DNA from: Verrucomicrobiaceae bacterium
GTDB taxonomy: Bacteria > Verrucomicrobiota > Verrucomicrobiia > Verrucomicrobiales > Verrucomicrobiaceae
NCBI GenBank assembly: GCA_029865835.1
Contig: JARXAL010000221.1
Location: 1-60,027 of the forward strand
Direction of reading: 5' to 3'
DNA: 60,027 nt
Part shown: in pieces, positions 2,672-41,083 of the stretch
Numbering within the stretch: position 1 is the first letter of the stretch
Layout of the letters: each line of letters begins with the position of its first letter
Translations under genes and position numbers: made by a program
The notes under the pieces: model-generated
Seen by the model: only the letters and a program-made list of their open reading frames with translations
Database searches by the model: none
What the model was told of the DNA's origin: nothing

Positions 2672-4182
2672 GGTTTTGTTTTGCCCTTTCCTTTTGGCAA
2701 CGGATTGCCGTCTTTGTCCACCACGGCTCCGCCGAAGTAGGGGTATTTGTCCCACGCATCATTGGTGGGGTCCACTCGTGGGTCGGCCGTGTCGCGCATC
2801 CAACGCTCGACGCGGGCGCGAAGGTCCTGCCGGGTGGCGGCATATTCGGCGCGGTTGGCGACGTTGGTGAGTTGGTGTGGATCGGTGCGCAGGTCGAACA
2901 GCTCCTCACCGGGGCGCTTGTCGAAAGAGAGGTCGAAGAACTTTTTCATCTCCGGCTGGTCGAGGTTGGCGAGGATGAACGCCTTTGCACGCGAGCCATC
3001 CACGTCCCCATAGTCCCCCACGGCGAAATAGGCCTTTGGGTCGCCTGCGGGCCAGCGGTCGGAGCGCATGTTCCAGAGGTAGAGGAAGTCCTTGGTGCGG
3101 ATGCCACGGATGGGATAGCTCAGGTCACCTCGCCGGACATTGGCGTGGCGCTCGCGTTCCACGAAGACGTGGTCGCGCGCAGTGGCGGAGGTTTGGCCGA
3201 GCAGCACCTCGAGAAAACTGCGTCCGGTCATTTCGTCAGCGGGCTTCAAACCCGCGGCTTGGAGGAAGGTGGGGGCCAGATCGGTGAGATTGATGAAGTC
3301 ATCCACTTGGCGACCGGCCTGGAGCTTGCTGCCCCAGCGAATTGCGAGCGGCACACGGGTGCCGGTGTCGTAGCAATTGGCCAGGCCCCGGGGCATTTGC
3401 CAGCCGTTGTCGCTGGTGTAAACGACGAGGGTTTCATCGAGGAGATGGCGCTTTTCGAGTTCGGCGACACAACGGCCGGCATCCGCATCCACGCGACCGA
3501 CGGCGCCGTAGTAGGCGAGGAGGTTGGTGCGGACGGTGGGCGAGTCGGGCAACTCGGGCGGCACCTTGACGGAAGCGGAGTCGAGGCCCGCCCAGCCATC
3601 CGGTTCGTAGCGCCATTTGTTCAGGGAGGTGTCGGTATTGCCGCTCCAAAAGAAGAAGGGCTTCGCCGGGTCACGCTGCGCCATGAACTCGGCAAAATCT
3701 TTGAACTGTCTGCCCACCGGATTTTCGGTCCAGCCAAAGTCCTTGTAGTTGCCTGGGGACCAGCCTTTGCCACTAAAGCCGACCTCGTAACCTGCGGCGC
3801 GCAGGGCATCGGTGAAGACTTTCAGCTTTCTCGGGAAGGCGCTCCACAGGCTGGCGGCATCTTTGAGTTGGTGTGCGGCGCGTCCTGTTAGAATGGACGA
3901 ACGGGTGGGCGAACAGGACGGGACTGGACAAAAGGCATGGTTGAACAAAACGCCCTCACGAGCCATGCGGTCGAACACGGGTGTTTTCGCTGTGGGATCG
4001 CCCAAGACGCCGGCGTGGGGCCAGGACCAGTTGTCGGCTATGAACAAAAGGATATTCGGCTTGTCCGCTGGCGGTGAAGCGGCGGCGGCATGCAGTCCGG
4101 CTAGAGCAAGCAGCAGCGGGGTGAGAAGGTGGATGAGGAGGGCTTTCATCATTGGGCACGGGGGAACGGTAACGTGCTTCAT
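2668..4182 (-). CDS. Sulfatase (arylsulfatase family, secreted)
   Basis: DKPNILLFIADN N-terminal motif and formylglycine motif CSPTRSSILTGR. Confidence 0.93.
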   Translation of the reverse strand: MKHVTVPPCPMMKALLIHLLTPLLLALAGLHAAAASPPADKPNILLFIADNWSWPHAGVLGDPTAKTPVFDRMAREGVLFNHAFCPVPSCSPTRSSILTGRAAHQLKDAASLWSAFPRKLKVFTDALRAAGYEVGFSGKGWSPGNYKDFGWTENPVGRQFKDFAEFMAQRDPAKPFFFWSGNTDTSLNKWRYEPDGWAGLDSASVKVPPELPDSPTVRTNLLAYYGAVGRVDADAGRCVAELEKRHLLDETLVVYTSDNGWQMPRGLANCYDTGTRVPLAIRWGSKLQAGRQVDDFINLTDLAPTFLQAAGLKPADEMTGRSFLEVLLGQTSATARDHVFVERERHANVRRGDLSYPIRGIRTKDFLYLWNMRSDRWPAGDPKAYFAVGDYGDVDGSRAKAFILANLDQPEMKKFFDLSFDKRPGEELFDLRTDPHQLTNVANRAEYAATRQDLRARVERWMRDTADPRVDPTNDAWDKYPYFGGAVVDKDGNPLPKGKGKTKP

Positions 4183-7025
4183 TCGAGATAGAGGAGTTCG
4201 TTGGCGTTCAAGAGGGCGCGGCAGAAGGCTTCTGGGCCGTGGGTGGTGATGAGTTGAGTGGCGGCTTGGTGTTCTTTTTCTGATGGGGGGCGTTGGAAGG
4301 TGAGGGAGTAGGCTTTTGTGACGGGGTCGGCGGATTGGATGCGGGCCGCGAGGGACTTGGCCATGTCGAGGGTGAAGCTGTGATTGAGCAGGGTGAGGGC
4401 TTGCAGCGGGGTGGTAGTGTTGGCGCGTTTTGGGGCGGCGAAGGCGATGTCGGGGAGGTCGAAGTCATTGAGGACATCGACGATACTGGCGCGGGCATTT
4501 TGATGATAGACGGCGCGGCGATAGGTTTCGGGGCCGTGGGCGTCGAGCGGGAAGTAAGTGCAGACGTTGTTCTGGGTGAATTTGTAGAGGCGGAAGCCGG
4601 GGCCGCCCATAGGTTCGAGCTTCATCTGACCGGTGACGGTGAGCAGGGTATCGCGGAGTTCTTCGGCGCTGAGGCGGCGGGGCGGGAAGCGCCAGAGGAG
4701 GCGGGCGGATTTGTCGAGCTTGAGACCGTCTGGATGGCCTGCGGCGCTTTGCTGATAGGTTTTTGAGAGGAGGATTTCACGGTGGAGGTCCTTGAGTTTC
4801 CAGCCGTTGGCGACGAGTTTGGCGGCGAGGTAGTCGAGCAATTCAGGGTGGGTGGGTTTGCTGCCGAGGTAGCCGAAGTCACTGGGCGTATCGACGATGC
4901 CGGTCCCGAAGTGGTGCTGCCAGATGCGATTGGCGAGGACTCGAGATGTGAGGGGATTTTCGTCGCTGGTGATCCATTGGGCGAGGGTGAGGCGGCGCTG
5001 GCCTTCTTCGGCGTCGAGGGGAAGTTGGTAGGGTTTGGTGACTTGATTGAGGACGGCGAGGCTGGCGGGAACGACGGGGTCGCCGGGTTTCATGGGGTCG
5101 CCGCCTTTGTGGACGGTAGTGGGCTCTTTGGGTTGGGCGTGTGTGCCGACCCACATTTGGGGAAGTGGGGGCACGGCGTTGCGCTTCGTTTGGGTGGCGA
5201 GGATTTGTTGGCCTAAGGCGGTGAGCTTCTTCTGTTCGTCGGCGGTGATAACGCTGCGGCGGGCGCGCGCGATGCCGTGCCCGGGAGACCAGGGTTCACG
5301 GTCTTCATCGGTGGCGACGGTGGTCCAAGTTTGGCCGTCCAGGCTGACTTGAACTTCATACTCGGTGGGACTGGCGCCGCGGACTTTGCTTTCATCGGTA
5401 TCGCGATCTCCGCGTGCATTGATGAAGGTGATGCGATGAATGGTTTCGGGCTTAGCGAGGGTGAGCCTGAGTTCGGGCGGGCTGCCGATGAACCAAGCTT
5501 CGCCGCGCTGACCGTCGATGCAGTATTGAGGACCGTAGGCCTCAGGGAAGTCTTCAGCGGTGGTGGATTTGGCGCCTTCGGCGATGGTGCCGTTGGTGGC
5601 GAGGGCGACGTTGCGGTTGTCGGTATTCCAGACTTGGAACTCGGTGAGTTTGCCCCCACCACCCTTTGCGGCCTTGGATTGAAAGTCACTGCTGAAGCTG
5701 CGGATGATGAATTTGATGTGTTTGGCTTCGATGGGTGAGAAGGATTCATCGGTGCCGAATGGGTCGATTTTGGGCCTTGTGAACTTGGCTTGAGCAAAGG
5801 CGGCTTTGGCGCGTTTTTCGATGTCAGCTTCGAGTTGATCGCGCTCGGTCGTGAGGAGATTCAACTTCTGATTGAGGGGTTTGATGGAGGCTGTGTAGGC
5901 GGCTTGTTGTTCCTTTGTGGCGACGGTTCTTCGGCCGTGGGTTACGCCTTCGAAGGCGGCGCGGAGGCGGTAGTAGTCTTCGGTGGGGATGGGGTCGAAT
6001 TTGTGGTCGTGGCAGCGGGCGCAGTTGATGGTGAGGCCGAGGAAGGCGCCACTGGTGGCGGTGATCATGTCGTCGAGCGTGGCGGCGCGGATGTTTGCCT
6101 GCGCGACTTTGTCCTGGTTGCCGACGTCATCATAGGGACCAGCGACGAGGAAGGCGCTGCCGACTTCGATGTGGGGCTTGCCTTTGCCGATGACGTCACC
6201 GGCGAGGTGCTCGGTGATGAGTTGATTGAAGGGTTTGTCCTCGTTGATGGAGCGGATGACGTAGTCGCGGAAGGGGTAGAGATCGTCGATGATGAAATTG
6301 CGTTCGAAGCCGTTGGATTCGCCAAAGCGGACGACATCCAGCCAATGGCGGCCCCAGCGCTCTCCGTAGCGAGGAGAGGCGAGGAGGCGCTCAATGAGTT
6401 CTTTGTTGGCTCTAGTGTTGGTCTGGCAATCCTTGGCGAAGGCCTCGACTTCCTCGGGGGTGGGCGGGAGGCCGTGGAGGTCATACGTCATGCGACGGAT
6501 GAGGGTGCGCGGGTCGGCGGGGGGATTGAAGTTGACGCCCTTTTCTTTTAGTTTGGCGGCGATGAAGTCATCGATGTCTGGTGCGGTGTTGAGGTCGGTT
6601 TTGTTCGGCTGGAGGGACCACCAGGTTTTGTCGCCGCGCTTGGCTTCGATCTTAGCGCCATCGCGGGGATCGGGGGCGCCCATTTGGACCCAGGAGACGA
6701 GATCGGCGATGACGGAGTCGGGGAGTTTGGGTTTTTTGGGGGGCATCTCGAGGTCTTCTTCGAGATGCTGGATGGTGCGGATGAGGAGGCTGGCTTCTGG
6801 GTTGCCGGGGAGGATGGCGGGCTCGCCACTGTCACCGCCTTTTTCCCAACCGGCTTTGGAGTCGAGGTAGAGGTTACCTTTGAGTTTTTTGGCTTCGGCG
6901 CTGTGGCAGGAGTAGCAATGCTCGACAAGGATGGGTCGGACTTTTTGCTCGAAGAAGGCGATGCCTGCTGGGTCGGCGGCGAGGGTGGTCGACGAGACGA
7001 AGAGAATGAATGGAAGGGGTTTCAT
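4179..7025 (-). CDS. PSD1 (DUF1549/DUF1553) planctomycete-type cytochrome c-like protein
   Basis: VEHCYSCHSAEAKKLKGNLYLDS, LEMPPKKPKL, RYGERWGRHWLDVVRFGESNGFERN, CARCHDHKFDPIP. Confidence 0.92.
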   Translation of the reverse strand: MKPLPFILFVSSTTLAADPAGIAFFEQKVRPILVEHCYSCHSAEAKKLKGNLYLDSKAGWEKGGDSGEPAILPGNPEASLLIRTIQHLEEDLEMPPKKPKLPDSVIADLVSWVQMGAPDPRDGAKIEAKRGDKTWWSLQPNKTDLNTAPDIDDFIAAKLKEKGVNFNPPADPRTLIRRMTYDLHGLPPTPEEVEAFAKDCQTNTRANKELIERLLASPRYGERWGRHWLDVVRFGESNGFERNFIIDDLYPFRDYVIRSINEDKPFNQLITEHLAGDVIGKGKPHIEVGSAFLVAGPYDDVGNQDKVAQANIRAATLDDMITATSGAFLGLTINCARCHDHKFDPIPTEDYYRLRAAFEGVTHGRRTVATKEQQAAYTASIKPLNQKLNLLTTERDQLEADIEKRAKAAFAQAKFTRPKIDPFGTDESFSPIEAKHIKFIIRSFSSDFQSKAAKGGGGKLTEFQVWNTDNRNVALATNGTIAEGAKSTTAEDFPEAYGPQYCIDGQRGEAWFIGSPPELRLTLAKPETIHRITFINARGDRDTDESKVRGASPTEYEVQVSLDGQTWTTVATDEDREPWSPGHGIARARRSVITADEQKKLTALGQQILATQTKRNAVPPLPQMWVGTHAQPKEPTTVHKGGDPMKPGDPVVPASLAVLNQVTKPYQLPLDAEEGQRRLTLAQWITSDENPLTSRVLANRIWQHHFGTGIVDTPSDFGYLGSKPTHPELLDYLAAKLVANGWKLKDLHREILLSKTYQQSAAGHPDGLKLDKSARLLWRFPPRRLSAEELRDTLLTVTGQMKLEPMGGPGFRLYKFTQNNVCTYFPLDAHGPETYRRAVYHQNARASIVDVLNDFDLPDIAFAAPKRANTTTPLQALTLLNHSFTLDMAKSLAARIQSADPVTKAYSLTFQRPPSEKEHQAATQLITTHGPEAFCRALLNANELLYLE

Positions 7026-27467: not shown

Positions 27468-28613
27468 ATGGCTGACAAGCGCGACTACTACGAGGTCCTT
27501 GGCGTCTCCCGGGACGCCACTGCGGATGACCTCAAAAAAGCCTACCGCAAACTCGCGGTGAAATATCACCCCGACAAAAACCCTGACGACAAGTCGGCCG
27601 AGGAGAAATTCAAAGAAGTCAGCGAAGCTTATGACGTCCTGAACGACGACCAAAAGCGCGCGGCATATGACCGCTATGGACATGCCGCGTTCGCGGGTGG
27701 CATGGGCGGTGGTGCAGGCGGCGGCGGCATGCATGATCCGTTCGACATCTTCAAAGAAGTGTTCGGCGGCGGTGGCGGCGTTTTTGAGTCCTTCTTCGGC
27801 GGTGGCGGCGGTGGAAGTCAGCGTCGCAGCGGTGGCCCCCAACGGGGATCTGATTTGCGTTACGCTCTCGAGATCACCCTCGAAGAAGCCGCTCACGGCG
27901 CCGAGCGCGAGATCGAGTATGAGCGCCTCGTGTCCTGCAAAACCTGCACCGGGAGTGGCTCGGCCTCCGGCAGCGGCAAAAAAACCTGCCGCACCTGCGG
28001 AGGCGCGGGCCAAGTCATTTCCTCGCGCGGCTTTTTCCAGGTACAACAAACCTGCCCCGATTGCGGCGGCACTGGCGAGACCATCACGGATCCCTGCAAA
28101 CCCTGCCGGGGCGTGGGTCGGGTCAAAGAACGCACCCGCGTTCGCCTGCGCATTCCCGCTGGCATCGAGGAAGGCTCCCGCCTGCGCTCGCAAGGCAATG
28201 GCGACACCGGCACTGCCGGCGGCGCACCTGGCGACCTGTACGTCGTCATGCACCTCAAGCCTCATGACGTCTTCCAACGCGATGGGGACGACCTGCACTG
28301 CGAGATGCCCATGTCCTTCACAACGGCTGCCCTCGGAGGAGAGCTCACTGTTCCCACGATCGAAGGCAAAGCGACCGTCAAGATTCCAGCAGGCACGCAG
28401 AGCGGCACGACCTTCCGCCTCCGCAGCAAGGGTCTCAAGCACCTGGGTGGCGCCAACAACGGTGACCTCTACGTCCACGTTCAAATCGCCGTCCCTACCA
28501 AGCTCAATGGCGACCAAAAAGCCAAACTCCAGGAATTCGCCAATCTGATTGGCGAAAACGCCTCTGAGATGGAGGAAAGCTTTTTCGAGAAGGCCAAAAA
28601 GTTCTTCAGCTAG
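27468..28613 (+). CDS. dnaJ: Chaperone DnaJ
   Basis: J domain with HPD and four CxxCxGxG zinc motifs ([32 protein letters not shown]). Confidence 0.96.
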
Positions 28614-28734
28614 GCACCAAGTCCGACCTCACCGGCCCGAATTTCCTCACAAAACCCATGAGCAGCGCAAAAAGCGGCTTGTTCGAGGGTTTTTGTCCAA
28701 TGCCGACGCTTTGCCGCCTCTTGTTCCCAGCACG

Positions 28735-31700
28735 ATGAACCCGCCTTCCTCATTCCATCTCTGGACCCGTCCCCTATTGACGTTCGCCCTGCTCATGCCA
28801 GCCACGCTCAACGCCGCTGACGCTGAAGGCGTCAAGTTCTTCGAGATGAACATCCGCCCCCTGCTGGCGCAAAAATGCTTCGAGTGCCACGGCAAGGACA
28901 AACAGAAAGCTGATCTGCGGCTCGATCACATCGACCACATCCGCGCCGGAGGCAGCCATCATGGCCCTGCCATCGTCAGCGGTCCCGTCGAAAAATCTCC
29001 TTTGATCCAGGCCATCGAATACAAGGACTCTGAGTTCGAGATGCCACCGGATGAAAAGCTCACCAGCGAGCAGATTGATCTGCTCAAAAAGTGGGTCGCT
29101 ATGGGAGCTCCCTGGCCGGAAGGCGAAGTCGCCCCGAAAGGCCCCTACAAGCCGGGTGTCATCTCTGCCGAGGAAAGAGCTTGGTGGGCCTTTCAACCGC
29201 TCAAGAAAGTCACCCCTCCCGCTCCCATCAAAGACAGTGGCTCAAACGAGATCGACCTCTTCGTTCGCGAGCGACTTGCCAAAGAGGGCCTGGCACCCTC
29301 CGCTGAGGCTTCGCCTGAGGAACTCATCCGGCGCGTCACTTTCGACCTCCACGGCCTGCCACCCACGCCAGAGGCCCTTCGGCAGTTTGTCTCCGCTTAC
29401 CGGGCCGCCCCAAGCGCCGCCGAGCGCAACCGGGTTTACGAAACTCTGATCGACGACCTCCTGGCGTCTCCCCATTATGGCGAACGCTGGGCCCAACATT
29501 GGCTTGACCTTGCCCGTTACGCCGAGTCCGAAGGTTACCGCCAGGATGCCTACCGCCCCAATGTCTGGCCTTACCGCGACTACGTCATCAAGGCCTTCAA
29601 CGCCGACAAGCCCTATGACCAGTTCATCCGCGAGCAGATCGCCGGGGACGAATTGGACCCTGAAAATCCGGAGGTCACCATTGCCACCGCCTTCCTCCGC
29701 CATGGCATCTATGAGTACAACCAACGCGACGCCGAAGGGCAATGGAAGCTCATACTCAATGAAGCCACCGGTGTCACCGCCGACGTCTTCATGGGCCTCA
29801 GCGTGCAGTGCGCCCAATGCCACGATCACAAATTTGATCCGATTCTGCAAAAGGACTTCTATCGCCTGCAGGCCTTCTTGAACAACGTCACCTGGCCGGA
29901 GGACAAGCTGCTCGCCACCCCTGATGCAGTGCGCGAACACGAAAAACAACTCGCCGCCTGGAAGCAAGCCGCCGCGGCTCCCCTTGCGGTCATCGACTCC
30001 ATCCTTGAGCCCCGCTATGCGAAGGCCGCCGAAAAGGCCATGAGCCTCTTTCCCGATGAGGTGAAGGCCATGTATGCCAAACCCAAGGCAGAACGCACTC
30101 CTTACGAAGAGCAAGTCGTGCAACTCGCCTACCGTCAGGCGGCCCTGGAACGCACCCGCTACAAAACGGACAAGATCCCTGAACCCGATGCCAGCCGCCT
30201 CAAGGAAGCCACAGCAGGACTCGCCCAATTTGACAGCCTCAAACCAAAGACGCCCCTGACCGCCTTCGTCATCGGCGAGACCGGCCTGAAACCCGCACCC
30301 GCCGCCTTCATCACCCGAAAGTCAGGCAAAGTCGAAACCAACCCAGGTTTCCTCACCATCCTCAGTCCCGAAGACGCGAAAATCCCGGAGCCAAAACCCG
30401 GTTCTGCCACCAGCGGGCGCCGCACGGTCCTGGCCAACTGGCTTGCCGACCCCCAAAACCCTCTGACGACTCGCGTCATTGTTAACCGGGTCTGGCAATA
30501 CCACTTCGGCCGGGGCCTGGTCTCCACGGCCAGCGACTTTGGCCGGCTGGGCGAAATGCCCACGCACCCCGAATTGCTTGATTGGCTGACTTCGGACTTT
30601 CTCGCCAACGATTGGCGCCTCAAGCCGCTGCACAAAAAGATCCTGCTCTCCGCCACTTACCGCCAAACCGCCCGGCGCGCACCCGATGCAACGGCCTTGT
30701 TGAAGGATCCCGAAAACAAGCTCCTCTGGCGCTTCCAGCCCCGGCGCCTGGACGCCGAAGAAGCTCGCGATGCGGCCCTCGCCGCCAGTGGCGAACTCCA
30801 GGACAAAGCGGGTGGCGAGGGCGAAGACGCCAAGAAGCCCCGCCGCAGCATTTACACCAAAAAAATTCGCAACACCCAGGACGAAATCCTTCGCAGTCTG
30901 GATGCCCCGGCGGGATTCTCCAGCACGCCAAAACGTGACGCCACCACCACCGCCACCCAAAGTCTGCTTTTTTTCAACGGCGACTGGCCGATGGAACGCG
31001 CCCGGCTCATGGCCGCCCGGCTGAACTCCGAACACTACAACGACACCACCTCCCAGGTGCGCAGCGCTTACGAGCTCACCTTCAATCGCTCCGCCACACC
31101 TGCCGAACTGAAGGCGGCCATTGCTTTCATCGAGAAGCAGACCGCGCAACTGAAAAGCGAGGAACCGCCGCCGCCGCCCGTCACCAGTCCCTTGGCTGAC
31201 CTTTCCAAGCGCTTCCCGCCCGCCGTCACCCAAATCGTCAAGACCACCAAAGCCCTGCATCTCCAACCCGGCAGCGCGCACGAAAAACTCAGCGTTAAGA
31301 CCGAGGACCCGGAAGGCGAACGTTTCTTTGTGGAGGCGCTCGTGAATCTGGATGCCCTTTATCCAGACGGGAATGTGCGCACCATCGTGTCGCGCTGGAA
31401 CAATGGCAAAACCGATGCCGGCTGGGCCTTTGGGGTGACCAGCCAGAAGTCGGCGTATCAGCCGAACAACCTCATCATGCAGTTGAGCGGCGATGATTTT
31501 CAAGGCACCCACGCTTATGAGGTCGTCGCCTCCGGTTTGCGGATCCCCACCGGCAAAGCGCATTACGTGGCCGCCTCAGTGAGCAATCGCCCGCTCGAAG
31601 GACGCCCGTTTGGCGGCAGCGTGACCTTCTATGCTCTGGACCTCACCGACCCCAACGCGACGATGCAAACCATCATGGTGCCGCATGAAGTCGTCGGGGG

Positions 31701-32019
31701 TTACATCGATGCCAACCGCGCCCTTGTGGTCGGTGGACGTGACTCGAATCCAGGCAGCCTTTGGGACGGCGGCATCGCTCAAGTCATTCTCTCGAATGGC
31801 GAGCGGAAACCGGAGTGGAAGCCCATGCAAAGTGCCGTCGCCAACTGCGTGATGAATCTCATCGGGCAGGATGTTCCTGTGAAATCCAATGACGTCTTCA
31901 CCTGGCAGGCAAGCGCCCCGATCGCGAAGCCCTCCACTCGCCCTGATCCCGCCCGCGAAGCGCTAACGGATTTCTGTCACGCTCTGTTGAACTCCAACGA
32001 GTTCTTTTACCTGCACTGA
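28735..32019 (+). CDS. PSD1 (DUF1549/DUF1553) protein with C-terminal LamG-like segment
   Basis: [56 protein letters not shown]; LamG-like insertion between DUF1553 parts. Confidence 0.92.
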   Translation: [1094 protein letters not shown]

Positions 32020-36068: not shown

Positions 36069-37412
36069 ATGCCGATAAGCGTGCCGGATTTGTTCTCTGT
36101 GACGGCGGCTGTGTGTTTCGGGGTGGTGCTGCCGTGGGCGCAGCGGGTGGATGCCGGGTCGCCTGCATTGCTTCGAACCCTGGCCCTGTGGGGATTGCCT
36201 TTTCTGGTGTTGGCGGCGAGTTGGGAGCGGGGACCGATGGCGGCAGTGCTGGCGATGCCGGCGATGGTGTATGCGCTTTGGCTGTTCGCTTATGGTGCGG
36301 GGCGTTTTCTTGCGAATGCCGGGGAGTCGCCGGCGGTGAGTTGGCTGGAGGCGCTGTCTTCGAGTGGTCCGCTGGTGGCGGCGACGGCTTGGGTGTGGTC
36401 GCGCTACAACAGTCAGTTCGCGGGGTTTCCTGAGCCTTTGGCGACTCTGACGGTGGTGCATTTTTCAATCACGTTCGGAGTGCTGCCAGCGGCGCTGGTG
36501 GCTTGGACGCGGGCGATGCCTGATCGTCCCGGTCGGGGTGTGCAACATGCGGCGCTTTGGATTTACACGCTTTCCGCGCCGCTAACGGCGCTATGCTTTG
36601 CGCTGCGGACGGAGGTGATGCGGCCAGGGGCGGTGGAGGCGGTTTGTGCGGTGGCGTTTGCTACCGGGTTCAGTGTTTGGTGGGCAGGGATCGGGTCGAA
36701 TCGGGCGCGAGGGGCAGGTTTGCCGTTGGTCGTGGGGTTCGGGTTGGGAGCGGGTTATACGGTAACTCAGCATATGGGTTGGCCGTATTTGAGCATCCCT
36801 CAAATGTTTGGGATTCATGGGGCGCTGAACTTGATCGGGTCGGTTGCGCTGACGGCGTGGGCTCCAGTGCGCGCTGTGGTGCCGGGTGCTCCGGCTCCTG
36901 AGGCGCGGTTCCCAGTCGTCATGGGAGAAGCGGAATCCGCGCTGTTTGTGGACAAGCATCGGCGGGATTTAGGACCGTGGTCTGAAGCGGCGTTTGGACG
37001 CATGAAGGAGGCGCTGCTGGGGTATCGATTTTATCCGGCAACAACGATGGTGCGGAGGACGCAATTTGAGGAGGAAGGCAGGGCTGTGCGGGTGGGGGAT
37101 CGGATTGGCATGGGACTTTTGCTGCCCAACTTGCCAGGATTGCCGGCGGTTTGTTTGCCGGCGGTCGTGGAGGTGCATGAGGTGTTCGATGGCACGGAAG
37201 CGGTCCGGTTAGGCTATCGCACGACGACCTTTCATTACGGCCGTGGCCAATGGCTGGCGGAGGTGAGTCGACAGGAAGATCGGTTGGTGTTGGAGGTGCG
37301 CGCCCATGTGCGCCCAAGCCGCTGGTTTGTCTGGCTGGGCCTGCCGGTGTATCGGCGGTTTCAGCTGGGCGCTTTCCGCGCGGGGTGCGCGAATTTGCAG
37401 GCGTTGATTTGA
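36069..37412 (+). CDS. YndJ-like membrane protein with C-terminal DUF1990-like domain
   Basis: Multiple TM helices, then FYPATTMVRRTQFEEEGRAVRVGDRIGMGLLLP and GYRTTTFHYGRGQWLAEV. Confidence 0.72.
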   Translation: MPISVPDLFSVTAAVCFGVVLPWAQRVDAGSPALLRTLALWGLPFLVLAASWERGPMAAVLAMPAMVYALWLFAYGAGRFLANAGESPAVSWLEALSSSGPLVAATAWVWSRYNSQFAGFPEPLATLTVVHFSITFGVLPAALVAWTRAMPDRPGRGVQHAALWIYTLSAPLTALCFALRTEVMRPGAVEAVCAVAFATGFSVWWAGIGSNRARGAGLPLVVGFGLGAGYTVTQHMGWPYLSIPQMFGIHGALNLIGSVALTAWAPVRAVVPGAPAPEARFPVVMGEAESALFVDKHRRDLGPWSEAAFGRMKEALLGYRFYPATTMVRRTQFEEEGRAVRVGDRIGMGLLLPNLPGLPAVCLPAVVEVHEVFDGTEAVRLGYRTTTFHYGRGQWLAEVSRQEDRLVLEVRAHVRPSRWFVWLGLPVYRRFQLGAFRAGCANLQALI

Positions 37413-37421
37413 GCCCGTGGG

Positions 37422-38708
37422 CTATTTCATCAACGCCTCGATCTCTTCGGCTTCGATGGGGATGTCGGCCATGAGGTCGGTGTTGCTGGTTTCGCCGATG
37501 AGGATGTCGTTTTCGAGGCGGATGCCGAGGCCTTCTTCGCGGATGTAAATGCCAGGTTCGACGGTGAACACCATGCCTGCTTGGACGGGCTGCCAGGCGG
37601 GTGGAACGTCATGGACGTCGATGCCGAGATGGTGGGAGGTGCCGTGCATGAAGTACTTTTTGTACAGCGGCTTTTCGGGGTCCTGATCGGCGACGGCTTT
37701 GGGGTCGATGAGGCTGAGACGGATCAATTCGTCATTCATGAGTTCGCCGACTTTTTCCTGATATTCGCGGATGATGACGCCGGGTTTGAGCATGTCGCAA
37801 CAGGAACGGAAAACGCGCAGGACGGCGTTGTAAACATCGCGCTGACGGTCGGTATAGCGACCGTTGACAGGAATGCTGCGGGTGAGGTCGGCGTTGTAGT
37901 TGGCGTATTTGGCGGCGATGTCGAGGAGAAGCACTTGGCCGTCTTCGCAGCGGCAGTGGTTCGTGACGTAGTGCAGCACGCAGGCGTTCGCGCCACTGGC
38001 AATAATGGGGGTGTAAGCGAAGCCGCCGGAGCGCTTGCGGATGAATTCGTGGGCGAGCTCAGCTTCGACTTCAAACTCGTGAACACCAGGACGGACGAAT
38101 TTTAACAAACGCATGAAGCCGTCCCGCGTGATGCGACAGGCTTCTTGGAGGAGCGAGATTTCGTGGGGGCTCTTGATGCCGCGCAGGGGATAGAGAACGG
38201 GCGAAAGGCGCTCATAACGGTGCAGAGGATACTCATGCTGGCAGCGGCGGGCGAAGCGGAGTTCACGTGTTTCGACTGCGATGCTGGCGCGGGGGTGTTC
38301 GTTGCCATTGAGGAAAACGACGGAGGCTTGGCACATCAGCTGGCGGAAGAGGATCTCGAACTCGGAGGTCCAGACGATTTTTTGAATGCCAGAGCGTTCA
38401 CGCGCTTGGGCTTGGGTGAGTTTGTCGCCCTCCCAGATGGCGATGAGTTCGGAGGTCTCACGAACACAAAGGATTTCCCGTTGTTTGGGATCGGGAGCAT
38501 CAGGGAATAGGATGAGAACGGTTTCTTCCTGATCGATGCCACTCAGGTAGTAAAGGTCGCTGTTCTGAGCAAAGCCAAGCGTGCCGTCGGCATTGGTGGG
38601 CATGATGTCATTGGCATGCAAAATGACGAGTGCACCGGGCGGCAGGGCGGCGGCGAGGCGGCGGCGGTTTTCTATGAAGAGTTCAGCGGGAGCAGGTTGG
38701 TAGCGCAC
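37422..38708 (-). CDS. pepP: Xaa-Pro aminopeptidase (aminopeptidase P)
   Basis: LFIENRRRLAAALPPGALVILHAND, NSDLYYLSGIDQEETVL, MHGTSHHLGIDVHD, VEPGIYI; GTG start at 38708 proposed because upstream codons fall in a repeat. Confidence 0.88.
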   Translation of the reverse strand: MRYQPAPAELFIENRRRLAAALPPGALVILHANDIMPTNADGTLGFAQNSDLYYLSGIDQEETVLILFPDAPDPKQREILCVRETSELIAIWEGDKLTQAQARERSGIQKIVWTSEFEILFRQLMCQASVVFLNGNEHPRASIAVETRELRFARRCQHEYPLHRYERLSPVLYPLRGIKSPHEISLLQEACRITRDGFMRLLKFVRPGVHEFEVEAELAHEFIRKRSGGFAYTPIIASGANACVLHYVTNHCRCEDGQVLLLDIAAKYANYNADLTRSIPVNGRYTDRQRDVYNAVLRVFRSCCDMLKPGVIIREYQEKVGELMNDELIRLSLIDPKAVADQDPEKPLYKKYFMHGTSHHLGIDVHDVPPAWQPVQAGMVFTVEPGIYIREEGLGIRLENDILIGETSNTDLMADIPIEAEEIEALMK

Positions 38709-38730
38709 AGGGAGCAGTCGGTAAGTTTCG

Positions 38731-38766
38731 ACAGGATTAACAGGATTGCGCCAGATGAACAGGATT
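38731..38766. repeat. Three direct ACAGGATT repeats (intergenic-repeat-like element)
   Basis: ACAGGATT at 38731, 38740 and 38759. Confidence 0.8.
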
Positions 38767-38807
38767 TTGATGGGCAAATTTCGAGGCCGCCCGATGAATC
38801 CGTCAGG

Positions 38808-39908
38808 CTACTTAGCCGGTCTTTTGGCAGCAGCGGGATGGCGGTCGGCTTCGAGCCATTTCTCGAGCGCATCGCGAAAACGCTCCATGGGTAGGGCAAA
38901 GGTGGTGATGCGATCGGCGCGGGCGATGTTCACGGCGATGGCGCGTCCTTGCAGATCGAAAACGGGGCCGCCCATGTCATGCGGGAAAAGGGGCAGATCG
39001 TGCTGGAGAATTTCGGGGAAATCGTCGGTGCGGATGGAGATGCCGCCGTTGGCATAGTCGTCGCCTTCCCAGTTGGCGACGATTCGGGAGCGACTGGCGA
39101 GACGCACGCGTTTGCGGATTTCCTTGCCTTGACGTTTGATTTTGATTTCGACCTCGTCACCGATTTGGTGCTTCTGGATGATGACATTGACCTCGGGAAT
39201 GGAGGAGGCGCGTAGACCGTCGACAGTGACCAGGAGGTCCTCTTCCTTGAGGCCAGCGAGAGCGGCGGGGCTTTCTTCGGCGATGCCATTGATTTGCAGG
39301 CCGCCGTCGGTGGGTTTGCCTGAGATCCCAAGAGCGGCTCCGAGCCCCGGGATGGGACGGCGGGAAGCACTTAGCACACCGAGGCGCAGGTCGAAAATAG
39401 GGACGCCTTCAACGCCTTCTTCTAAAGCGGTCAAAGCGGGGGAAACCAGCCAGTGTCCCAAGCCAGCCGACACGGACGGAGCCCAAGTCACTGGGATGAC
39501 TGAGATCGGTCGGTTGTCGGGGGAAAGAGCCTGGCCGAGAACGAGGTCGAGTTTCACGTCGCGGCGGACTTCGCGCACGGCCCACGTGTCATCACTAGGA
39601 CGGGGGCGAAGACGGCAATCGTTCAGATGCAGGATTTCGGAGGCTTTGGAGATGAAATAGCCTTCCTGGCCGACAAAAGTGACCCCTACCAAAGCGCGGC
39701 CTTTGGCGTCCTCCAACCAACCGCTGGACGGCAGCACTTGGCGGGAGAGAGTCTGCAAGGCGCGGCGAACTTCGGGTCCATTGACCAATGGCAGGGGGAG
39801 GAGCGAATCGGGTAGTTTTTCGAGACGACTTTCTGCCGCTGCCGTGGAAAGAAGCCCCAGCAGCAACCCTGACGCTGCAAAAAAGATTCTGGTGAAGCGT
39901 CGGGTCAT
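38808..39908 (-). CDS. HtrA-like PDZ protein, predicted pseudoprotease
   Basis: PDZ segment INGIAEESPAALAGLKEEDLLVTVDG; trypsin-like fold but catalytic His and Ser positions replaced (FISKASEI; PHDMGGPVFDLQG). Confidence 0.7.
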   Translation of the reverse strand: MTRRFTRIFFAASGLLLGLLSTAAAESRLEKLPDSLLPLPLVNGPEVRRALQTLSRQVLPSSGWLEDAKGRALVGVTFVGQEGYFISKASEILHLNDCRLRPRPSDDTWAVREVRRDVKLDLVLGQALSPDNRPISVIPVTWAPSVSAGLGHWLVSPALTALEEGVEGVPIFDLRLGVLSASRRPIPGLGAALGISGKPTDGGLQINGIAEESPAALAGLKEEDLLVTVDGLRASSIPEVNVIIQKHQIGDEVEIKIKRQGKEIRKRVRLASRSRIVANWEGDDYANGGISIRTDDFPEILQHDLPLFPHDMGGPVFDLQGRAIAVNIARADRITTFALPMERFRDALEKWLEADRHPAAAKRPAK

Positions 39909-40951
39909 GGCTTGGATCCGGGGGCTTTTTGAGGTGGCTGGGCTTCCAGTTCTGCTTCAGCAGGTTTCTGCCCCAGCTTCACTTCGAGGACGCGCTCCAG
40001 ATCACCGCGTCGAATCTTGATCGTGATCAGGTCCCCGGGGGCCCTTTGGCGGACAATGGCGGCGAAGTGACTGTCGTCGATGAGGGATTCTCGATTCACT
40101 TCAAGCAGACGATCCGCCATTTTGAGTCCTGCGCGTGCGGCGGGTGATTCGGGAATGACTTCTTCAACTTCAATGGCGGCGGGATCAGCGGCCGAACGCA
40201 TGACAGATACGCCCAGATAGCCGCCGCTTCCAGTCGCCCAGGTTTGGATGACTTGACTTCCTTTCATGCGATCCCAGGAGCGGAGGAAGGGGGCCATGGA
40301 GACATGGACGTTTTGATTTCGTTCGGACAAGATCTGGCTGTGGATGCCGATGAGCTTGCCTTTCAAGTCAAACAGCGGACCTCCCGAGTCGCCACCCATA
40401 AGAACACAGTCGGTCTCCAGGCTATTGGCCTTTTGTTTGAGCACCCGCCCGACCCGGAGCACGAGACCACGCTCTTTGTCCCAGCCACCGGGGTGCCCTA
40501 GCGCGAAACACCAACTGCCGACACTGACTTTGCCGACATCACGCTCCACTTCGACTAAGGGCCAAGTGCGCTTTTTGTTACGGCGGTCGAGTTGGGCGAG
40601 ACCGGCGTCGGTTTTGTCGTCGAGACCCAGAGCGGTGGCTTTTTGCAGGGTTCCATCAGGCATGACGACCGTGATTCTGGCCCCTGGTTTCATGGTGACG
40701 TGAGCAGCGGTCAAGATGAGCCCGTCTGGCGAAACGATGACGCCGCTGGCAGTTCCGTCGCCATGACGCAGAACGACGAGCGATTGGCGAACGCGGCCGA
40801 GGTGCTCCTGCACGGTTTTTTGTACCTGCATCAGCGCCGGAATGTCGAGAGCCGGGGCGGGAGCCACCTCTGCCAAGCTGGGCAGACCAACTGTCAAAAG
40901 CGTCCCCGCTACGAAAGGCAGAAGGCACGCAAAGTTGGGAAATGAAGACAT
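39905..40951 (-). CDS. HtrA/DegP-like serine protease with PDZ domain
   Basis: LILTAAHV (His), KTDAGLAQL (Asp), MGGDSGGPLFDLKGKLIGI (Ser), PDZ PESPAARAGLKMADRLLEVN. Confidence 0.9.
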   Translation of the reverse strand: MSSFPNFACLLPFVAGTLLTVGLPSLAEVAPAPALDIPALMQVQKTVQEHLGRVRQSLVVLRHGDGTASGVIVSPDGLILTAAHVTMKPGARITVVMPDGTLQKATALGLDDKTDAGLAQLDRRNKKRTWPLVEVERDVGKVSVGSWCFALGHPGGWDKERGLVLRVGRVLKQKANSLETDCVLMGGDSGGPLFDLKGKLIGIHSQILSERNQNVHVSMAPFLRSWDRMKGSQVIQTWATGSGGYLGVSVMRSAADPAAIEVEEVIPESPAARAGLKMADRLLEVNRESLIDDSHFAAIVRQRAPGDLITIKIRRGDLERVLEVKLGQKPAEAELEAQPPQKAPGSKP

Positions 40952-41083
40952 GGCAAGGACAGATACGACGACCGGAAGGAAGTTGCAACGCTCCATGGGT
41001 CCGATTCCTCTCGGAAAGACGGTTGAATTCACCGTTCCCCTGCGCTTTTCTGCCACGTTCCCTATTTTCCTAAACTACCACAC

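Follow-up and report, generated by a model that had tools for sequence, protein, structure and literature searches.

A co-occurring HtrA-type protease and predicted pseudoprotease in Verrucomicrobiota, the latter with a PDZ domain placed at loop L3

The window analysed here, a 60,027-nucleotide stretch of DNA from a Verrucomicrobiaceae bacterium, carries a gene for an HtrA-type protease (UP) directly followed by a gene for a catalytically dead homologue (DN), and the two proteins very probably form one functional unit. DN is likely to be a regulatory or recruiting subunit. We favour, with fair confidence, an obligate protease/pseudoprotease unit in which DN recruits or senses by its PDZ domain and controls UP in trans. 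That DN activates UP in trans specifically via loop L3 is a more tentative proposal, to which we give somewhat less than an even chance. The unit itself is well supported, and the direction of control is what we infer.

UP and DN are both encoded on the minus strand. UP occupies 39905..40951 according to ORF calls and matches Trypsin_2 (2.5e-21) and PDZ; DN, which encodes 366 aa, was called at 38808..39908. The UP frame is open from a GTG at 41056, giving a 383-aa ORF whose numbering is used here for UP residues; the ATG at 40951 is the likelier start, because a predicted signal peptide lies right behind it. DN also has a hydrophobic, signal-like segment at its N-terminus (residues ~1-25). An earlier interpretation made from the letters alone (the sequence-only reading) had described a 4-bp overlap of the two genes, which we found as the stop/start sequence ATGA at 39905..39908 (minus strand), containing the UP stop and the DN ATG. 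This arrangement suggests translational coupling of UP and DN, and exactly the same overlap is present in 62 UP/DN pairs (151 separate DN genes examined). An aminopeptidase P gene (AMP_N + M24; 37422-38777, minus strand) lies 30 bp after DN. It adjoins the pair in ~27 loci of the family and at one locus (L085) that belongs to a different family, forming a three-gene peptidase cluster in some lineages. A three-gene operon with aminopeptidase P as the core unit was rejected, since it holds in only part of the family.

Homologues of both proteins were gathered from 143 relatives, 286 class genomes and 289 phylum genomes. Pfam placed a trypsin-like domain at UP residues 75-262 (40271..40834, minus strand). 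Its catalytic triad consists of His119 (LTAAHV; 40700-40702), Asp150 (TDAGL; 40607-40609) and Ser224 (GGDSGGP; 40385-40387), all on the minus strand, as the sequence-only reading had proposed, and the H-D-S triad was intact in 167/167 UP homologues. A C-terminal PDZ domain, also matched by Pfam, lies at 39962..40234 (minus strand) and is missing in some lineages. UP did not reach the NCBIfam cut-off for DegP, DegQ, DegS or HhoA (best 131 bits versus a cut-off of 416); by its sequence features we class it as an HtrA-type protease (S1C features) outside the named models. A shortened L3 in UP, with loss of the sensor loop, was also considered and discarded, as the profile alignment with other HtrA proteins of the same genomes contained only a one-residue gap.

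The active site of DN is broken. The protein reads YFISKASE around position 57; in the KASE motif (39636..39647, minus strand), Ser90 stands at the position of the catalytic His57, and Lys88 and Glu91 are conserved among 172 homologues. Gly193-Asp194-Ser195 of an active enzyme are replaced by His310-Asp311-Met312 (in PHDMGGP; 38973..38981, minus strand), a degenerate oxyanion/nucleophile loop in the homologue alignment, with His310 at Gly193 and Met312 at Ser195. The Asp102 position is retained as Asp121 in KLDL (39546..39548, minus strand), with D in 166 and N in 6 of the 172 homologues. The loss of His and the exchange of Ser for Met had been read from the single protein, and both were confirmed; the pattern is not due to chance, because it is common to 172 homologues. 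Position 57 was S in 166, T in 3, E in 2 and A in 1, and thus His in 0/172; position 195 was M86, C40, A15, V13, I9, T4, S2, L1 and N1 in 171 homologues, and thus Ser in 2/171; position 193 was non-Gly in 170/171. With His/Ser missing from the aligned catalytic positions of the family, one of the two refuting conditions set with the sequence-only reading was checked and did not overturn it. Without the catalytic His, Ser and oxyanion Gly193, DN is predicted to be permanently inactive. The Cys found at position 195 in 40 DN proteins is unlikely to serve as a new nucleophile, since it alternates with Met, Val, Ile and Ala, and position 57 is never His.

DN is, to judge from its dN/dS of 0.04-0.18, under purifying selection. 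A decaying duplicate that lies beside its parent by chance would have lost its active site in the same way, but this explanation has next to no probability and is already refuted by the dN/dS values, by the placement of UP and DN in two separate ancient clades and by their co-occurrence in 52/52 genomes (both described below).

The dead cleft has a conserved pattern of its own. Lys55 was kept in 165/172 homologues; K55, S57 and D102 are each conserved in ~96% of the 172, and Glu58 in 82%. The arginines of NIAR..DR near the C-terminus are conserved alongside these cleft residues. One explanation holds that DN has another, non-proteolytic activity, such as metal or ligand binding at a rebuilt K-x-S-E/Asp site, and is coupled to UP only genetically. 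The K55-S57-E58 and D102 cluster, the His of QHD and the NIAR..DR arginines are indeed conserved beyond scaffold needs, and MamO binds metal in a role distinct from its activation of MamE (PMC4794232). However, His303 of DN is T, S or N in 41/171 homologues, which makes a strict His site unlikely, and fusions in both orders and a fused-chain model with a pTM of 0.82 suggest physical association. We consider such a separate activity decidedly improbable.

The sequence-only reading had stated that the downstream protein keeps the fold and the PDZ domain. Both are present, but the domain order differs from that of HtrA, and the placement of the PDZ domain at loop L3 had been missed. Of the protease fold, residues 45-188 (39345..39776, minus strand; profile match to HtrA, and AlphaFold2) come first; they comprise barrel 1 and the first barrel-2 strands and end with GVLSASRRPI. 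The PDZ domain (residues 190-270; 39099..39341, minus strand; Pfam, AlphaFold2 and profile alignment) is inserted there, and the rest of barrel 2 (residues 271-350; 38859..39098, minus strand; Pfam and alignment) follows with the signature ILQHD..PHDMGGP..NIARADRxTTFALP. The PDZ domain was placed between the fold halves because the C-terminal piece of Trypsin_2 comes after it: positions 107-144 of the Pfam model match DN residues 280-326. The junction lies between GVLSASRR (GIISAxxR in HtrA) and ILQHD (LQTD in HtrA), that is, at loop L3. When the PDZ domain was removed from the DN family alignment, the profile probability was 99.8 against ordinary HtrA proteins of the same genomes and 99.7 against UP. 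An AlphaFold2 model of DN (pLDDT 90.6), in which the PDZ strands sit between barrel-2 strands, supports the insertion at L3. Foldseek with DN gave DegQ, DegP and MucD as the best matches (E ~1e-14), with a TM of ~0.3, as expected given the differing domain order; PDB sequence and fold searches returned conventional HtrA only, among the matches listed. In 168/170 DN proteins the PDZ domain is flanked by the two fold halves; one of these proteins (L082) fails only the boundary rule of the script. A survey found PDZ domains tethered C-terminally in trypsin-like proteins (PMC2605481), and in the open library searched, itself incomplete, we found no description of a PDZ domain within a trypsin fold. 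DN resembles an HtrA subunit in its predicted working but is no HtrA protease: the triad is absent and the PDZ domain is not C-terminal.

The pairing of UP and DN was retained among orthologues, so that the other refuting condition set with the sequence-only reading, orthologues without the pairing, did not overturn it either. UP lies directly upstream of DN on the same strand for 147/151 separate DN genes; the four exceptions are two contig ends, a locus where DN is beside a truncated fusion (L132), and a genome (G012) in which both genes are present and unlinked. The loci had been picked by DN matches, and the 286 class genomes were therefore searched independently for UP as a recheck of the pairing: 52 had both, 0 had UP only and 0 had DN only. 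For this count, UP matches scoring more than ~200 bits were set against full-family matches of DN, to which the PDZ-less fusion in G326 was added; ordinary HtrA proteins score below ~190 bits in the UP search. The 52 co-occurrences are not 52 independent events, as the genomes are related. The unit is near-universal in the family to which the window belongs, common in the order (Verrucomicrobiales) and sporadic beyond it, where it occurs in a few families of the class and in a single additional family of the phylum. By the matches obtained, this scattered presence in other families shows that the unit was gained or lost together. Neither gene is present in ten genomes of reduced size from a single genus (g12; G068, G090, G096, G105, G113, G118, G120, G122, G323 and G327), while in the same genus there are other genomes with two pairs. 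A scan of genome contigs with the single protein matched only two near-identical contigs, and a plasmid collection gave no match.

In the tree, UP and DN form separate clades, each with full support. A recent tandem duplication of UP into DN was rejected on this ground. Calling DN a paralogue of UP, as had been done at first, understates the age of the split between two ancient clades. The internal groupings of the UP and DN trees are mirrored, a second paralogous pair included, which indicates that pairs duplicate and descend together.

About 19 proteins join UP and DN in one chain. The order is UP-DN in 18 complete fusion proteins and DN-UP in L150, which by its arrangement is an independent fusion in reversed order. 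An AlphaFold2 model of one natural fusion (L084, 590 aa) had a pLDDT of 85.4, a pTM of 0.82 and 72 poorly ordered residues. It suggests a defined packing of both folds, as support and no proof: the fused-chain model was judged by pTM alone, and L084 is without the UP PDZ domain that the window pair carries. UP has lost its PDZ domain in several of the fusions and also in 11 genes that encode it separately. Every separate DN retains its PDZ domain between the fold halves, and PDZ is absent altogether in only two fusions, both UP-DN, at L163:1623-4421 and L151:2793-4919. The L163 protein has ~230 extra C-terminal residues with the motif GGSNMIG, by eye possibly a SASA/SGNH esterase. At another locus (L146:2369-4042 and 4048-6180), a DN-type protein lies directly upstream of a UP-DN fusion, making three protease folds in tandem with one predicted to be catalytic.

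For the co-expressed pair, the sequence-only reading had suggested a regulatory subunit, a hetero-oligomer or a substrate adaptor. The adjacency and co-occurrence of the genes, the mirroring of their trees, the existence of fusions in either order and the fused-chain model speak strongly for a functional unit, and the sequence does not choose among these roles. A guide to the possible working is DegS, whose L3 (residues 176-189, with Arg178) receives the PDZ signal and hands it to LD' of the neighbouring subunit, a relay that works both in cis and in trans (PMC11642142). Arg184 of DN (39357..39359, minus strand), equivalent to this activation-cluster Arg178, is retained in 170/172 homologues, and Gln302 of DN, equivalent to Gln191, in 164/171. 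UP is looser at the same positions (R121/K44, and Q64 with many others), where the register of the UP alignment is less certain. Since DN has no catalysis of its own and yet keeps the PDZ domain at L3 and the Arg and Gln, we infer that it senses or recruits by the PDZ domain and acts in trans on UP. UP and DN would then be a co-translated, periplasmic and obligate unit with UP as the sole catalytic subunit and DN as a permanently inactive HtrA-fold subunit with a PDZ domain built into L3. DN would bind UP directly, and its PDZ domain would bind a peptide at the C-terminus of a substrate or of a stress ligand. L3 of DN, with Arg184 and Gln302, would pass this binding event on to the loops around the active site of the adjoining UP, and the dead subunit would thereby recruit substrate and/or turn the live one on in trans. 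The PDZ-L3-LD' relay of DegS would in this way be divided over two gene products. Such a relay cannot be universal, because the fusions L151 and L163 have no PDZ domain, and the conservation of Arg184 and Gln302 may reflect folding.

DN could instead be an inhibitor or safety cap that binds UP and keeps it off until a PDZ ligand releases it. The evidence from pairing, co-translation and fusion fits this as well, and the unliganded DegS PDZ domain is itself autoinhibitory (PMC11642142). The retained activation-cluster Arg and Gln point the other way, as does the precedent of MamO, which activates MamE non-catalytically (PMC4794232) and which we regard as a functional analogy for trans control by a dead subunit; in the repeated covalent fusions, moreover, UP would stay inhibited for good unless a ligand gated the inhibition. 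Inhibition is in our estimate unlikely, although activation and inhibition are indistinguishable from the present evidence. A substrate receptor or chaperone, which catches clients by the PDZ domain and the dead cleft and passes them to UP without allosteric control, is a somewhat better candidate, though still on the unlikely side. It would agree with the invariant carboxylate-loop Gly194 of the DN PDZ domain (76-row alignment), with the conserved K55, S57 and D102 of the cleft, and with the loss of the UP PDZ domain in several lineages where that of DN is kept. Alone, it leaves the PDZ position at L3 and the near-invariant L3 Arg and Gln unexplained, and it overlaps with the preferred reading, in which DN recruits or senses and controls UP in trans.

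Among known systems, the closest analogue is MamE/MamO of the Magnetospirillum magnetosome (PMC4794232), of which UP/DN is not a member. Both systems pair a periplasmic HtrA-type protease with a trypsin-fold pseudoprotease that lacks Ser195 and Gly193, and MamE needs MamO, whose non-catalytic activation of its partner has been demonstrated (PMC4794232). MamO keeps His and Asp, has a TauE transporter domain and di-histidine metal binding, and direct contact with MamE was undetected (PMC4794232). In contrast, DN is without His and Ser, has its PDZ domain inserted at L3, belongs to another phylum, and is encoded by a gene that overlaps that of its partner and is repeatedly fused to it. Pfam gave PDZ and Trypsin_2 for DN and no TauE-like domain. 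The NCBIfam cut-offs for MamO and MamE (800 bits) were far from reached, and the MamO model matched 20/76 DN proteins weakly (best E 7e-11). UP and DN share the chymotrypsin fold and PDZ with DegS, DegP and DegQ (MEROPS S1C), which are homo-oligomers with C-terminal PDZ domains, whereas here one subunit is dead and has its PDZ domain inside the fold. In g12 genomes, a PDZ-less UP with a PDZ-bearing DN resembles Arabidopsis Deg5/Deg8, in which a PDZ-less HtrA is synergistic with a PDZ-bearing one (PMC3640471); unlike UP/DN, Deg5 and Deg8 both have the full triad, and the PDZ domain of Deg8 is C-terminal. In the open library searched, again incomplete, we found no description of the UP/DN pair. 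DN is no MamO, as it stays below the cut-off of that model and has no transporter domain.

A further proposal is an undescribed two-subunit HtrA machine of Verrucomicrobiota, in which allosteric sensing has moved to the dead subunit via a PDZ domain inserted in its own relay loop and the rebuilt, conserved K-x-S-E/Asp cleft of that subunit has its own ligand-binding or gating role; we hold this as a possibility well short of probable. In classical HtrA proteins, sensing and catalysis are combined in one chain. PDZ domains also govern protease access or activity in CtpB/SpoIVB and other PDZ-gated proteases, which have other folds or a domain order differing from UP/DN, and a dead partner carrying a PDZ domain within its fold is not known from such systems. 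Bacterial pseudoproteases are little explored, with MamO as the nearest known case. UP and DN, found across an order, would represent a natural parting of sensing from catalysis; mixing the two subunits would make the PDZ-L3-LD' relay directly testable, and the natural fusions are ready-made single-chain constructs.

Elsewhere in the window, two genes encode large PSCyt1-PSCyt2-PSD1 (planctomycete-type cytochrome) proteins (28549-32019, plus strand, and 4179-7025, minus strand), and a protein encoded at 36069-37412 (plus strand) has a DUF1990 domain joined to a YndJ-like membrane region.
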